From Vicinamibacteraceae bacterium (GTDB lineage Bacteria > Planctomycetota > Phycisphaerae > Phycisphaerales > UBA5793): a DNA stretch of 64,000 nucleotides. Made by a program: the position numbers and the translations under genes. Below, piece after piece: positions 8,635 through 51,763 of the stretch (the stretch's first letter is position 1; every line of letters begins with the position of its first letter). The stretch covers positions 1 to 64,000 of the forward strand of contig WYBR01000096.1 in assembly GCA_011525805.1 (NCBI GenBank), read 5' to 3'. The notes under the pieces are model-generated. The model saw nothing but the letters and a program-made list of their open reading frames with translations. It had not been told where the DNA came from and searched no databases.

Positions 8635-11154
8635 CTATTCGATGCGAGCCACGTTGCTGGTGCCGCACGTTGCGATGTCGACCAGTTGCAGGTAGCCGCC
8701 GCAGGGGCCGGGGCCGGTGGTTGAGTTGAGGGTGCGTGAGCCGTTCTGGCCGGCGCTGCCTTGATAGGCGATCTGGATCTCGTTGCTGCCCAGGCCGAGA
8801 GTTGTACCGGCGCAGGGGCGGTTGTTGGGAATGATGAATGAGCCGGTGTCGCGCGCGAAGATGAGGGCGATCTGGCCGCCCCCCGTCGCGCCGGACCACG
8901 AGATTTGGATGGGGCCGCCGGAGGGGCAGGTGGCGGCGACGAGGAGTTGGAGCCCGCCGCTGCCGGCGCCCCGGAGTTTGACGACGAACGCATCCATGGT
9001 GCCGCCGTGGTATGCGTTGTTCCGGCCTTCGAAGGCGGTCGAGGCGGTGCCGCCCGTCGTGAGCGCGTTGCCGGCGCTGTCCACTGCGATGCCCTCGCCG
9101 TAGTCGTTGTTGCGTCCACCGAGGTAGGTCATCCACTGGAGAGCGCCTGGTGGGCTGACCTTGACGACAAACGCGTCGTAGGAACCGTGTTCTGTGTTGT
9201 TCCGACCTTCGAAGTCGGTCGAGTGGGTTTCGCCCGTCACTAGCGCGTTGCCCGTGCTGTCCACGGCGATTCCGTTGCCCCAGTCGTAGGCGCTTCCCCC
9301 GAGGTACGTCATCCACTGGAGGGCGCCCGAGGCGCTAACCTTGACGACAAACCCGTCGGCGTAGTTGTGGTAGGCGTTGTTCCGACCTTCGAAGACGCTC
9401 GACCAGGTTTCGCCCGTCACCAGCGATTTGCCAGCGCTGTCCACGGCGATGCCGTTACCCTCCTCCCGGTCGCTTCCACCGAGGTAGGTCATCCACTGGA
9501 GGTCGCCTGAGCCGCTGACCTTGACGACAAACGCGTCGCTGGCGCCGCCGTGGGATGCGTTGTTCCGACCTTCGAAGTCGAACGAGCCGGTGCCTCCGGT
9601 CACCAGCGCGTTCCCGGTGCCGTCCACGGCGATGCCGCGCCCATAGTCGTAGTCGGTTCCACCGAGGTAGGTCATCCACTGGAGAGCGCCTGAGCCGCTG
9701 ACCTTGACGGCGAACGCGTCGTAGTAGCCGCGGTATGCGTTGTTCCGACCCTCGAAGTCGGTCGAAGTGGTGGAGCCCGTCACCAGCAAGTTGCCGGCCT
9801 TGTCCACGGCGATGCCGCCGCCAAAGTCGTCGCGGCTTCCACCAAGGTAGGTCATCCACTGAAGGGCGCCTGAGGCGCTGACCTTGACGACAAATGCGTC
9901 GTAGGGACCGCCGTGGGATGCGTTGTTCCGCCCTTCGAAGTCGGGCGAATAGGTATTGCCCGCCACCAGCGCGTTGCCGGCACCGTCCACGGCAATGTCG
10001 TAGCCTTCGTCGTCGAGCCTTCCACCGAGGTAGGTCATCCACTGGAGAGCGCCTGAGCCGCTGACCTTGACGACAAATGCGTCGTATTCGCCGCCGCGAT
10101 ATGCGTTGTTCCGACCTTCGAAGTCGGTCGAATAGGTGAAGCCAGTCACCAGCGCGTTGCCGGCGCTGTCCACGGCGATGCCGTTGCCCCGGTCGCCGCC
10201 GCTTCCTCCGAGGTAGGTCATCCACTCCAAGTCGGGATCGATGATGAGTTCGCGCGTCGGATCGACGGGGCCATCGAGCGCGAAGCGGTAGGTGCGATCG
10301 TCGCAGAGTTCGAAGCGGGCGGGGACGGCGTCGCGCGACTGGCCTTTCACAAAGCCCCCGGTCAATGACCGGGGGTGATACACCACCGGCGCACCGTCGG
10401 CAAGTGTGCCAAATGACGTGTTGATCTGAACATTGCCGGCCTCGTCGATGCACAGGGAATCAATGCCGTGGTAGGCGATGCGGATTTGCGCGTAGTCCGC
10501 CCCCGGCGCGACGTGGAACTCGTACTTCAGCACGCCGTCGTCATTGCCCCTCACGTGCAGGTCCACGCCGTCGTAGAGATCCTCGTAGATGACCGCGCCG
10601 TAGGAGAGAACGCCGCTGGCCGTGGTGCGCCCTTCGCCGCCGACGAAGTAGTTGAACTTCGCCGCCTGCGGCTGCGCGCCAATGGGCAGCACACCGTTGC
10701 TGCCGGGGAAGGTGATGGTGAGTGTGAGGCCGTCGTACGCGGCGGACTCGCCTGACGAGCCGCGCGTGTCAGCAAGCGGCACATCGCGCTCGACGTTCAA
10801 CGCCGCTTCCTCACGGGCGCGGCTCGTTGAGGCAGCGGCGCGGCTCGTAGAGGCATCGGCGCGGCTCGTAGAGGCATCGGCGCGGCTGATTGAATCGACA
10901 TGCCGCGTCAGGTGCATCGTCAGTGCCGACTCCCGGAAGGCGACATCGAGACCGCGCGAGCGCAGGGCGTAGTGGACTTCGCGATCCGCCCACTGTCCCT
11001 GGTTGGGCACAATGTAGACGCCGCACAGGCCGAGTTTGAGCATCTCGCTTGCGGCGGGATCGCTCTCCGCCGGGCCGCCTGTGGCCGGCGGCGCAATGAG
11101 CACGCAGCAGGCAAGAACCACACCCATCGCCGACCACGTGGTGAAACGACGCAT
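8635..11154 (-). CDS. SBBP-repeat beta-propeller secreted protein
   Basis: 839 residues. ATG 11154 has an excellent site, AGGAGGAGG, 8 nt upstream; upstream in-frame sequence is not needed. It has a signal peptide (MGVVLACCVLIAPPATGG). Next is a DUF7948-like N-terminal domain (GVYIVPNQGQWADREVHYAL ... RELIIDPDL), broken by a low-complexity heptad RADASTS repeated about three times. Seven SBBP repeats of ~54-56 residues follow, each starting LQWMTYLGG and carrying GIAVDSAGNALVTG, FEGRNNA and DAFVVKVS; seven blades would close one propeller. The C-terminal ~105 residues are the domain shared with three other proteins here, ending in YLQLVDIATC. It is probably surface-exposed or secreted; binding partner unknown. 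Confidence 0.88.
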   Translation of the reverse strand: MRRFTTWSAMGVVLACCVLIAPPATGGPAESDPAASEMLKLGLCGVYIVPNQGQWADREVHYALRSRGLDVAFRESALTMHLTRHVDSISRADASTSRADASTSRAAASTSRAREEAALNVERDVPLADTRGSSGESAAYDGLTLTITFPGSNGVLPIGAQPQAAKFNYFVGGEGRTTASGVLSYGAVIYEDLYDGVDLHVRGNDDGVLKYEFHVAPGADYAQIRIAYHGIDSLCIDEAGNVQINTSFGTLADGAPVVYHPRSLTGGFVKGQSRDAVPARFELCDDRTYRFALDGPVDPTRELIIDPDLEWMTYLGGSGGDRGNGIAVDSAGNALVTGFTYSTDFEGRNNAYRGGEYDAFVVKVSGSGALQWMTYLGGRLDDEGYDIAVDGAGNALVAGNTYSPDFEGRNNASHGGPYDAFVVKVSASGALQWMTYLGGSRDDFGGGIAVDKAGNLLVTGSTTSTDFEGRNNAYRGYYDAFAVKVSGSGALQWMTYLGGTDYDYGRGIAVDGTGNALVTGGTGSFDFEGRNNASHGGASDAFVVKVSGSGDLQWMTYLGGSDREEGNGIAVDSAGKSLVTGETWSSVFEGRNNAYHNYADGFVVKVSASGALQWMTYLGGSAYDWGNGIAVDSTGNALVTGETHSTDFEGRNNTEHGSYDAFVVKVSPPGALQWMTYLGGRNNDYGEGIAVDSAGNALTTGGTASTAFEGRNNAYHGGTMDAFVVKLRGAGSGGLQLLVAATCPSGGPIQISWSGATGGGQIALIFARDTGSFIIPNNRPCAGTTLGLGSNEIQIAYQGSAGQNGSRTLNSTTGPGPCGGYLQLVDIATCGTSNVARIE
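10355..10375. repeat. Palindrome of the TCAnTGA family, in frame inside the SBBP gene
   Basis: Perfect 10-bp arms (10355-10364 and 10366-10375) around a single central base: CCCCCGGTCA, A, TGACCGGGGG, preceded by AAAG. It shares the AAGCCC...TCAnTGA...GGG layout with the elements at 25217 and 52206 although the inner arm bases differ. On the minus strand it encodes part of HPRSLTGGFVKG, which interrupts the normally compact end of the N-terminal domain. Confidence 0.65.
10818..10890. repeat. 21-bp tandem repeat encoding heptads in the SBBP protein
   Basis: Three units of 21 bp (GCGCGGCTCGTAGAGGCATC-like, two of them identical) and a partial fourth. On the minus strand they encode RADASTS heptads, a Ser/Thr/Ala linker between the signal peptide region and the N-terminal domain. 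Copy number could change by slippage in steps of seven residues without a frameshift. Confidence 0.75.
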
Positions 11155-48319: not shown

Positions 48320-49012
48320 ATGACCGTCAAGGAAGTCTTCGCACAACTCGAATCGCTCGGCGACGACGCTCGCCGCAAGTACAACGGCAAGACCGGGCCT
48401 GACGGAGTGGCCGGCGCGCCGGCGGACAAGCAGTTCGGCGTCAAGACCGGCGACCTCCGCGCGCTCGCGAAGAAGATCAAGGTCAACCACGAACTCGCGC
48501 TGGAGTTGTGGAAGACCGGCCACATGGATGCGCAGATGCTGGCCATCCTCATCATGAAGCCCAAAGAACTTTCGGCCAAACAACTCGATGCAATGGTGCG
48601 CGAGGCCCGCTTCTCGTGGGTGGCGGAGTGGCTGCAATCGTACATCATCAAGGAGCGATCCGAGGCCGAGAAGGAAACGCTGCGCGAGAAGTGGATGAAG
48701 GACAAGGATCCCTGGGCCGCCCGCGCCGGCTGGCACCTCACCGCTTCGAAGATCAACAAAGGCGCGGACGACCTCGACGTGCCCGCCTTGCTCGACCGCA
48801 TCGAAAGGGAAATGCCCAAGGCCCCGCCGGAGACGAAGTGGACGATGAACAACACCCTCGGCGCGATCGGCATCAAGCACGCGAACCACCGCAAACGCGC
48901 CATCGCCATCGGCGAGAAGATCGGCCTCTACAAGGACTGGCCGGTGTCCAAGGGCTGCACGATCCCCTACGTGCCGACATGGGTCGAGGCGATGGTGAAG
49001 GGGAAGGGGTAA
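48320..49012 (+). CDS. DNA alkylation repair protein (AlkD-like HEAT-repeat glycosylase family)
   Basis: 230 residues. Family features: QFGVKTGDLRALAKKIKVNH near residue 40, LALELWKTGHMDAQMLAILI, then HEAT-like helices, WMKDKDPWAARAGWHLTASK, and the conserved end TIPYVPTWVEAMVKGKG. These enzymes excise alkylated bases without base flipping; some members lack activity, so the activity here is inferred. The last 33 bp of the gene (48978-49010) are exactly repeated at 51025-51057. The present stop TAA uses bases just beyond the repeat, whereas the downstream copy runs into TGA. Confidence 0.88.
   Translation: MTVKEVFAQLESLGDDARRKYNGKTGPDGVAGAPADKQFGVKTGDLRALAKKIKVNHELALELWKTGHMDAQMLAILIMKPKELSAKQLDAMVREARFSWVAEWLQSYIIKERSEAEKETLREKWMKDKDPWAARAGWHLTASKINKGADDLDVPALLDRIEREMPKAPPETKWTMNNTLGAIGIKHANHRKRAIAIGEKIGLYKDWPVSKGCTIPYVPTWVEAMVKGKG
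48978..49010 (+). repeat. 33-bp direct repeat, left copy (3' end of the AlkD-like gene)
   Basis: The sequence from CATGGGTCGAGG to AAGGGGT is identical to 51025-51057. It could be an attL-like site or the trace of a duplication that came with the inserted segment 49011-51024. Confidence 0.85.
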
Positions 49013-49061
49013 ATTGCGGCGAGATCCTTTGGTAGCATCGCGACTCCGGGCAATGTACCAT

Positions 49062-49937
49062 CTACCCATACAGGTCGCGAACGTGGATGAATGGGTCGCC
49101 ACTCTCCGCTGCGCGCCGGACCTTTCTTGCCATGACGTCGCCAAACGGAAGTCGTCTCGCAAGCATTTCATACATGTCGAGCCCGTCCATGCAGACAACG
49201 CGCTTGCCTCGTCCGAATGCCGCAAGGCCATCCGCTGTAAACCCGCTTTGACTGACGAACAAACCTCTCGACCATGCTGCCTTGTCTGCCACCTTTCCTT
49301 CAAAGGAACGGAGGTCGGATGCTCCGATGGGCGGACCAGTCCACCGCGCCTCCAGGAGGTAGGTTTCACCTGATAGCTCGAAGCTCCCGTCAATCTGCTC
49401 ACCAACGTGCCGAAATGACGCTCGACCCGCCAAGCCGTTGGCGTCGAACAGTGCTTTCAGGAATCGCTCAAACGCATACCCGCGTGGCTGCGGGTCAAGC
49501 CGACTGACTTCAAGCAGCTGTTGCGTCAGGGCAAGCGAGCGAGATTCGTCAAAGACACTGATCGGCTCATGTGACACAGGTCGCGTCTCCGTGCCTGGCC
49601 GCTTGCCACCGAGCCTTTCGATAAGCAAATGGAATTGATCGTGCGCGTCCGGGATGTTTTCTGGGATCTGCCTTCTGCGGCGATCGTGTTCCCGATACTC
49701 CCACAAGGCCAACAACGTACGGACGCGGAGTTGAGGGTCGCAGTTCTTCAAGAAAAACCGCAGTCGCTTTGCCTTGCTCGTTCCTTCCACCCTGTACCGA
49801 GGATGATCGATATCTATGTCGAGTTCCTCCGCAAAGAAGGCGGAGAACGTGCGGTCGGAGAAGTTGAGGACATAACCGGCGCCCATTCCGAACAAATCGT
49901 CGATAAGTACCATGTCGAGCGTTCGAATCGTTGCCAT
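49062..49937 (-). CDS. Mrr-like (type IV) restriction endonuclease with AbiJ-like N-terminal domain
   Basis: 291 residues from ATG 49937 (AAAGGGA upstream), 2 bp after the companion gene. The N-terminal ~90 residues (NFSDRTFSAFFAEELDIDID, GTSKAKRLRFFLKNCDPQLR) resemble the helical domain found in AbiJ-type abortive-infection proteins. The C-terminal ~150 residues have a PD-(D/E)xK pattern of the Mrr family: GYAFERFLKALFDANGLAGR, then GEQIDGSFEL (Asp), then YLLEARW (Glu, with Arg in place of the usual Lys), then SFEGKVADKAAWSRGLFVSQ. Such proteins cut modified or foreign DNA. The Arg substitution is odd and may affect activity. Confidence 0.8.
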   Translation of the reverse strand: MATIRTLDMVLIDDLFGMGAGYVLNFSDRTFSAFFAEELDIDIDHPRYRVEGTSKAKRLRFFLKNCDPQLRVRTLLALWEYREHDRRRRQIPENIPDAHDQFHLLIERLGGKRPGTETRPVSHEPISVFDESRSLALTQQLLEVSRLDPQPRGYAFERFLKALFDANGLAGRASFRHVGEQIDGSFELSGETYLLEARWTGPPIGASDLRSFEGKVADKAAWSRGLFVSQSGFTADGLAAFGRGKRVVCMDGLDMYEMLARRLPFGDVMARKVRRAAESGDPFIHVRDLYG

Positions 49938-49939
49938 CG

Positions 49940-50536
49940 CTATCCCTTTGCGGACGTCACCTGTGGAATGACAGCACCGACTTCGTCCGCCCGCGAGAGA
50001 AACGAGGCCCACCACTCGTCCGGTATCTTGCCCGGAGTCTGCTTCTTAAGCCGAGCAACAACCATGAGCGGGTTGACGAGTAGCACGTGTCCGATCTGTT
50101 GCGCACCATTCGCCTTTATCCTGACGAAACCGTGGTCTTCAAGGATTCGCACGCGCTCCCGCCAACTTCGCAGACCGCGCTGTCCCGAATAACCAGCGGC
50201 GTACGCGTGGTCAGTTTCGTTCTTCACCTGCACATATCCTTCGTCGTAGACGCGAGCCCATAGCTCCACGTACACGGACGACGGATCGCCACCACCCGCA
50301 GACAAATGCTTGAGCAAGACGGTGACCCATGGCAGCAGGCGCGGAATGGTTGAGAAGCCATCGTTCTCGGTTCGTATCCACACCTCAGCGCCCGATCCTG
50401 GCCAAAGTTCGTCACGACGATCTGCGCGACGCTGATGCGCACGGCGGCGATCTCGCTTGTTGGCAGGAGCCTCGGGATCGGGGGTAACGGTGTGCTTGGT
50501 AACCGGTTTCTTCGTTCGCTTGGCCTTTGTTCGCAT
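49940..50536 (-). CDS. Restriction-cassette companion protein, possibly winged-helix
   Basis: 198 residues from ATG 50536. The first ~40 residues are Lys/Arg-rich (MRTKAKRTKKPVTKHTV). The body looks like a winged-helix DNA-binding domain: VYVELWARVYDEGYVQVKNE, then RSWRERVRILEDHGFVRIKA, then IGHVLLVNPLMVVARLKK. The stop is 2 bp before the endonuclease start, so the two form an operon. A regulator or DNA-recognition subunit is plausible. Start is weakly supported; no obvious ribosome binding site. Confidence 0.65.
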   Translation of the reverse strand: MRTKAKRTKKPVTKHTVTPDPEAPANKRDRRRAHQRRADRRDELWPGSGAEVWIRTENDGFSTIPRLLPWVTVLLKHLSAGGGDPSSVYVELWARVYDEGYVQVKNETDHAYAAGYSGQRGLRSWRERVRILEDHGFVRIKANGAQQIGHVLLVNPLMVVARLKKQTPGKIPDEWWASFLSRADEVGAVIPQVTSAKG

Positions 50537-51167
50537 CAGAATGTCCAATCGAAGACTTCGGAATTCCGCGTGACCTCGAGCGCCCAGGACGCTGGCGGAC
50601 CATCCCAGTGGCGTGTGGGCATCCTCAGCCATACTGAGCGTCGAGGCCGACGCATCACGCGAGTTCTGCAGTGGCAGTGCAGCGCTCGTGCATCTTCATT
50701 TTCCCGGCACTGGACAAGGAGTCTTGTGCGCTGATGAAGATGCTCTGGTACGGCAGGGGCACATTCCACGGTAAAGGATAGCGCCTCTCCGCGAGCCATC
50801 GCAGGATGGGCATGCGAGTGCGCGAGAAATCGCAGAGCATCGACAGACCGATCCCTGAGAATCCGGTCCCCTTTGCGCGTTTGTCGGTGCTCCTGTGCTC
50901 GACGTGCTCGTGCGTTCTCCGTGTGCTCCTAGTGCTCAGCGTGTGGGGATACGCAAGGGGGTACTGTGAATTCCCGATTCCGTTGTACGACCTAGAGTGC
51001 TGCGCGCCCCTCTGTTTGCGGACGCATGGGTCGAGGCGATGGTGAAGGGGAAGGGGTGACGGCGGATGCTCTGGCGCAGGCGACGCACGCTCTACCTCGT
51101 GAAGGCCAACGACGACTTTGTGAGTGGTTGTTCCTGCAGCAGCGCTCCCATTGCATCTTCCGCGCAG
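50537..51167. other. Intergenic region, 631 bp, with inserted-segment boundary
   Basis: No gene recognised. 50885-50945 is a degenerate run of GTGCTC-type units (GTGCTCCTGTGCTCGACGTG and similar). The right copy of the 33-bp repeat is at 51025-51057. Confidence 0.5.
51025..51057 (+). repeat. 33-bp direct repeat, right copy
   Basis: Identical to 48978-49010 and read into a TGA stop, as if this were the original end of the AlkD-like gene. A further partial match with a 2-bp indel extends upstream (GCGGAC versus GCCGAC). Confidence 0.85.
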
Positions 51168-51584
51168 ATGGATTGCCCGTGGTGCGGTTGCGGGTGGCTC
51201 TTCTCATGCCTTTATTGCCACGGGGCTTTCACATTCGCCCGCGCGGTGCTGATGAGAGAGTCGCTTGAAGAACTCGCCGCCCACGAGGTGCCTCGAACGC
51301 AGAGGGTCGTGTCGATGCAGGGCGAGATTCGTGAAGAGGTCCTCATTCCAACCGTCGAGGACTGGATCGAAAAGATGCAGCCGCTGATCGGCGCTCTTGA
51401 ACTCGACAGGACGTACGTGTATTTCGACGGGCATGCGATCCCCGCGGATGCGAATGGCGTTCGGATGAAGGGCATGCGCCGATCGCATGACCTGAACTAC
51501 GTTCCGCAGGTGCGGGCATTGACGGATCCCTCTGCCGAGGCGCTGCTGCACGACATCAAGTACTGGACCGCGGAAGACGAATAG
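51168..51584 (+). CDS. Small protein with N-terminal zinc-binding cysteine cluster
   Basis: 138 residues from ATG 51168, chosen because MDCPWCGCGWLFSCLYC then starts the protein; ATG 51066 gives a longer version. The N-terminal cysteines (CPWCGC...CLYC) form a likely zinc site. The rest is acidic with conserved-looking segments VPRTQRVVSMQGEIREEVLI and ELDRTYVYFDGHAIPADANG. No family recognised. It lies just right of the inserted segment, so it was probably next to the AlkD-like gene originally. Confidence 0.6.
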   Translation: MDCPWCGCGWLFSCLYCHGAFTFARAVLMRESLEELAAHEVPRTQRVVSMQGEIREEVLIPTVEDWIEKMQPLIGALELDRTYVYFDGHAIPADANGVRMKGMRRSHDLNYVPQVRALTDPSAEALLHDIKYWTAEDE

Positions 51585-51681: not shown

Positions 51682-51763
51682 TCTCACGCAGAGGCGCTGA
51701 GGCCGCGGAGGCGGCGATTTCATTTGTGTCCGATCTCTGCGACCTCTGCGCCTCTGCGTGAGA
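51682..51763. repeat. 16-bp-arm inverted repeat
   Basis: TCTCACGCAGAGGCGC (51682-51697) and its exact complement GCGCCTCTGCGTGAGA (51748-51763) enclose 50 nt. Similar CTCTGCGTGAGA-type repeats are, to my knowledge, common in several bacterial phyla; their origin is not known to me. Confidence 0.7.

Follow-up and report, generated by a model that had tools for sequence, protein, structure and literature searches.

RESULTS

A duplicated gene end on either side of a small insert

In the 64,000-nucleotide stretch of planctomycete DNA analyzed here (the window), the end of an AlkD-like DNA alkylation repair gene is present twice, on either side of a restriction-related cassette of two genes, and the state of the locus in congeners indicates that this cassette is an insertion and not ancestral. 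We consider it probable that the cassette arrived by an ordinary insertion with a long target duplication, not site-specific in nature; its position may have been set by selection. The features of the locus are listed in Table 1.

Table 1. Features of the AlkD locus, in window coordinates
Feature	Position	Strand	Remarks
AlkD-like DNA alkylation repair gene	48320..49012	+	230 aa, intact, stop TAA; PF08713, E 6.6e-20
Left copy of the 33-bp repeat	48978..49010	+	Covers the final ten AlkD codons and the T of the stop codon; exact repeat
Insert	49011..51024		2014 bp with a GC content of 0.586; no terminal inverted repeats; absent from congener G003
Mrr-like nuclease gene (Mrr_cat)	49062..49937	-	PF04471, E 5.1e-8
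Companion gene	49940..50536	-	Separated by 2 bp from the downstream nuclease gene; ORF open to 50632
Non-coding DNA upstream of the companion gene	50537..51024		Makes up the right side of the insert
Right copy of the 33-bp repeat	51025..51057	+	Displaced old end of AlkD, then TGA (51057-51059); the ribosome-binding site of gene 51066 likely lies in it
Accessory gene with CxxC motifs (gene 51066)	51066..51584	+	172 aa; homologue in congener G002

The two copies of the repeat (CATGGGTCGAGGCGATGGTGAAGGGGAAGGGGT) are identical at 33 of 33 bases (100%), and the likeness stops on both sides: the 40 bp upstream of the copies do not align, and beyond a shared T the left copy continues with AA and the right copy with GA. 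The stop codon of the repair gene is thus TAA, with T from the repeat and AA from the insert, while the right copy ends in TGA. A direct repeat of this length is far above chance: when the 64-kb window was simulated 20 times with an order-4 Markov model, the longest direct repeat came to 16 to 21 bp. On these points the initial annotation, which had reported the exact repeat, an Mrr-like nuclease and a companion gene on the minus strand between its copies, and a repair gene kept intact by a new TAA, was accurate; the open reading frame with the PF08713 match is complete.

The repeat contains no dyad, and no third copy with up to 3 mismatches occurs in the source assembly (4.54 Mb in 138 contigs). 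A search for the 33-bp site at the ends of other cassettes had been suggested; searches for the AlkD tail elsewhere in the genus gave nothing beyond weak chance matches and an exact search of IMG/VR with a 30-bp piece of the repeat gave 0 matches. No similar gene-end repeat with a displaced remnant was recognized in approximately 805 kb (about 18%) of the same genome, so the pair looks local rather than part of a genome-wide element family. A repeat of another kind, a direct-repeat array with spacings near 183 bp and multiples of about 180 bp, lies in a coding-like region at 9062-10230.

The insert and its genes

The insert is foreign-looking, with a lower GC content than the window (0.586 versus 0.671). 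The part of it used as a query (50560-51090) was not found elsewhere in the family, and the non-coding right part showed no similarity elsewhere in the family except to the AlkD tail. No donor DNA for the insert was found. Only the nuclease and companion genes, arranged as a two-gene operon, were recognized in it, with no integrase, transposase, recombinase or methyltransferase gene among them, which bears out the earlier remark that integrase and transposase are missing. The insert ends also carry no terminal inverted repeats, their end-to-end score being equal to the shuffle mean, and a DNA transposon or insertion sequence with target-site duplication was ruled out on this ground.

At 57% identity, the nuclease matches restriction endonuclease proteins encoded by Vibrio plasmids, whereas many other plasmids and two IMG/VR contigs carry more distant relatives. 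No other genome of a 392-genome sample of the phylum yielded a match at an E value of 1e-25 or lower. Its motif reads LLEARW, with Arg at the E-x-K position normally occupied by Lys, and the four aligned relatives having E-A-x-W read EAKW. This Lys is the catalytic one in PD-(D/E)xK enzymes; judging from the motif, the Arg-bearing nuclease may be weakened or inactive.

The companion protein, whose start at 50536 was picked from its homologues, belongs to an unnamed family on small plasmids (32 to 37% identity over the aligned family). Its members reside on small ColRNAI-type plasmids of Enterobacterales, where a different second gene is the partner, and other plasmids carry members in the neighborhood of Abi or type I restriction genes; the companion is possibly a defense-related module with exchangeable partners. 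A role as a plasmid replication protein, which would make the insert an integrated mini-plasmid, is unlikely, since the ColRNAI-type plasmids of the homologues carry Rop and the second-gene partners vary. A sequence-based search found no solved structures for the nuclease or the companion, and an AlphaFold2 model of the companion from two sequences had a mean pLDDT of 50, too low to use.

The same locus in congeners

The site is empty in congener G003. Its one AlkD tail matches the right copy at all of 35 bp, TGA included, and runs into a short interval before a BFD-like gene (51929 in the window). The state in the window is therefore derived and the right copy represents the original end, displaced, in keeping with the earlier suspicion that its TGA is the original stop. 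The empty-site search proposed with the initial annotation succeeded to this extent; G003 also lacks gene 51066, and the exact ancestral junction between AlkD and gene 51066 was not seen directly.

Two further congeners carry another cargo. In G004, AlkD is intact; an ankyrin-repeat gene comes next, and behind it lies a 101-bp AlkD tail (L020:5154-5254), which is 93% identical to the tail in the window, against approximately 76% for the flanking genes, a difference that hints at recent exchange between lineages. In G002, the body of AlkD is gone and a tail leads into the ankyrin gene, behind which come another tail, now decayed (its local score is 53, whereas 300 shuffles gave 39 at best), and a gene homologous to gene 51066; the junction between tail and gene 51066 is homologous to that in the window. 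The contig of G001 ends at the locus and is uninformative. At least two different cargoes thus lie behind the same gene end, with AlkD tails behind them that differ in length.

These congeners also bear on whether the assembler could have joined the cassette to the AlkD locus at the 33-bp repeat. The assembly is fragmented (138 contigs) and short exact repeats can mislead assemblers, but an AlkD tail behind a cargo gene is seen independently in the G004 and G002 assemblies, the junction at which the right copy meets gene 51066 is homologous in G002, and a wrong join would still require an AlkD tail beside the cassette. We regard such an artifact as highly improbable.

In the order, AlkD is patchy, with a match in 53 of 301 genomes, and no tail duplication was found at the AlkD genes of the other genomes of the order or the other genera inspected. 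In a genome of another family (G191, L070:2053-2319), AlkD lacks its middle part, and only its first 26 and last 71 codons are left.

The history of AlkD itself is more involved. In a protein tree, in which some supports are moderate and G003 is represented by a fragment, the AlkD of the window groups with those of G003 and L053, and the full G004 AlkD falls elsewhere. The tail remnant of G004 is of native type at 14 of 19 informative sites; the left tail of G002 is of native type at 10 of the 19 and of foreign type at 5. The simplest reading is that the ankyrin cargo entered beside a native AlkD and that G004 later swapped its AlkD body, a reading that does not fully explain why the G004 remnant is well preserved and the G002 one decayed.

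The downstream gene and its start

Gene 51066 has no Pfam match and belongs to no named family. Its differences from the G002 homologue fall 29/23/72 by codon position, a distribution that points to purifying selection. The start at 51168 assumed earlier has to be revised: the gene most probably begins at 51066, since the G002 homologue is conserved upstream of 51168. It is rare (7 of 400 genomes of the order), and the interval between AlkD and the BFD-like gene is thus a variable spot in which gene 51066 is perhaps an older arrival.

Only 5 to 6 bp separate the old AlkD stop from the start of gene 51066, and a purine-rich AAGGGGAAGGGG in the AlkD end precedes that start. The element, which the G002 tail retains as AAAGGGGAAG despite having decayed elsewhere, is likely the ribosome-binding site of gene 51066. 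Downstream of the gene, at 51682-51763, there is a 29-bp inverted repeat with 90% complementarity (TCTCACGCAGAGGCGC...) and 24 nt between its arms, which could be a dispersed intergenic repeat.

DISCUSSION

How the gene end came to be doubled

The arrangement can be accounted for by an insertion that doubled the last 33 bp of AlkD, such that the left copy completes the repair gene with a new TAA, its AA supplied by the insert, and the right copy is the old end, displaced and keeping its TGA. The event itself may have been RecA-type or illegitimate rather than site-specific, by one of two routes: (i) a staggered break that was filled in, or (ii) recombination in which AlkD homology served as the anchor at one end while the other end was joined illegitimately. 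An insert doubling the AlkD end would keep both neighboring genes working, and selection would presumably retain only inserts that spare AlkD and leave gene 51066 its ribosome-binding site; the breakpoint would look exact because only such inserts survive. In the passages of PMC3874152 and PMC3031569 that cite Nobusato et al. (2000) and Furuta et al. (2010), restriction-modification systems are described as able to insert with long, variable target duplications, on the order of 100 bp, and one-sided homologous recombination is discussed in PMC2884548 and PMC5361080.

The initial annotation had likened the locus to elements that integrate in the 3' end of a gene and restore it. The insertion and the restored gene stood up to comparison; the attachment site did not, given the lengths of 33 and 101 bp, the lack of a dyad and the lack of an integrase. 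If the AlkD 3' end were nevertheless an attachment site, minimal cassettes carrying a matching gene end would have been inserted by a tyrosine recombinase acting in trans. Such a mechanism agrees with the restored gene end and the displaced fragment, as in the mapping of islands at tRNA genes (PMC4383910), and with the five tyrosine-recombinase matches elsewhere in the genome, and the two insertions of different cargo with their left edge at the same stop codon could reflect site specificity instead. It is at odds with several observations: (i) the end points of the repeats differ in the two events sampled, 33 versus 101 bp; (ii) the 33-bp repeat has no dyad and the insert no integrase; (iii) the site is found nowhere else in the genus; and (iv) AlkD shows no such duplication in the other genera inspected. 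We therefore hold it to be unlikely. Its fuller version, in which this planctomycete genus has a true attachment site at the gene end and integrase-less cassettes (the nuclease and companion, the ankyrin gene and perhaps gene 51066) are mobilized in trans and stack behind the repair gene, seems to us still less probable. The variable tail length, together with the absence of a dyad, of terminal inverted repeats and of an integrase, fits a long, variable target duplication better than an attachment site.

Homology-facilitated illegitimate recombination is a specific form of the target-duplication reading that we prefer. Here, DNA of a relative in which AlkD adjoins the nuclease would have recombined within AlkD, and its far end would have been joined illegitimately inside the old AlkD tail. 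The apparent movement of AlkD between lineages, seen in the separation of the full G004 AlkD from those of the window and G003, speaks for it, as does the stacking of cargo beside AlkD with remnants behind, an arrangement of the kind that PMC5361080 proposes for type VI effector modules. Yet the AlkD tails of the window and of G003 agree at every one of 114 bp, so that no divergent donor segment is seen there, and a donor with AlkD adjoining this nuclease was not found; we think of this form as possible though doubtful. It counts against the preferred reading that the G004 event was more complex than a simple target duplication, the full G004 AlkD having diverged from its remnant.

The kind of insertion considered here is already known, but in this case one gene end has been used at least two times within one bacterial genus. 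With its empty site and its second event, the locus offers a readable example of how small defense-type gene pairs may enter a chromosome without a transposase or integrase and leave their neighbors unbroken. It suggests that ordinary insertion, combined with selection where genes are tightly packed, can produce gene-end repeats of site-specific appearance, a point that matters wherever mobile elements are called from repeats of this kind.

Comparison with known systems

The locus resembles the restriction-modification insertions with long target duplication in that a small restriction-related cassette has entered without a transposase, the neighboring gene has been kept, and the direct repeats measure from tens of to about 100 bp and vary in length. 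It departs from the published cases, which are full systems, in that no methyltransferase gene accompanies the Mrr_cat nuclease in the cassette, in the ankyrin gene carried by a second insert at the same place and in its planctomycete host. With integrase-driven islands at gene 3' ends (Islander type, PMC4383910) it shares a left copy that completes AlkD and a displaced fragment at the other end, whereas its insert lacks an integrase and spans only 2 kb, its repeat length is not constant and the gene concerned encodes a protein and not a tRNA. The homology-anchored arrays of type VI effector-immunity and Rhs modules (PMC5361080) likewise combine a constant anchor on one side with successive cargo and remnants behind it; unlike in those arrays, the remnant here is a gene tail of 33 to 101 bp and the homologous donor arm is hypothetical.
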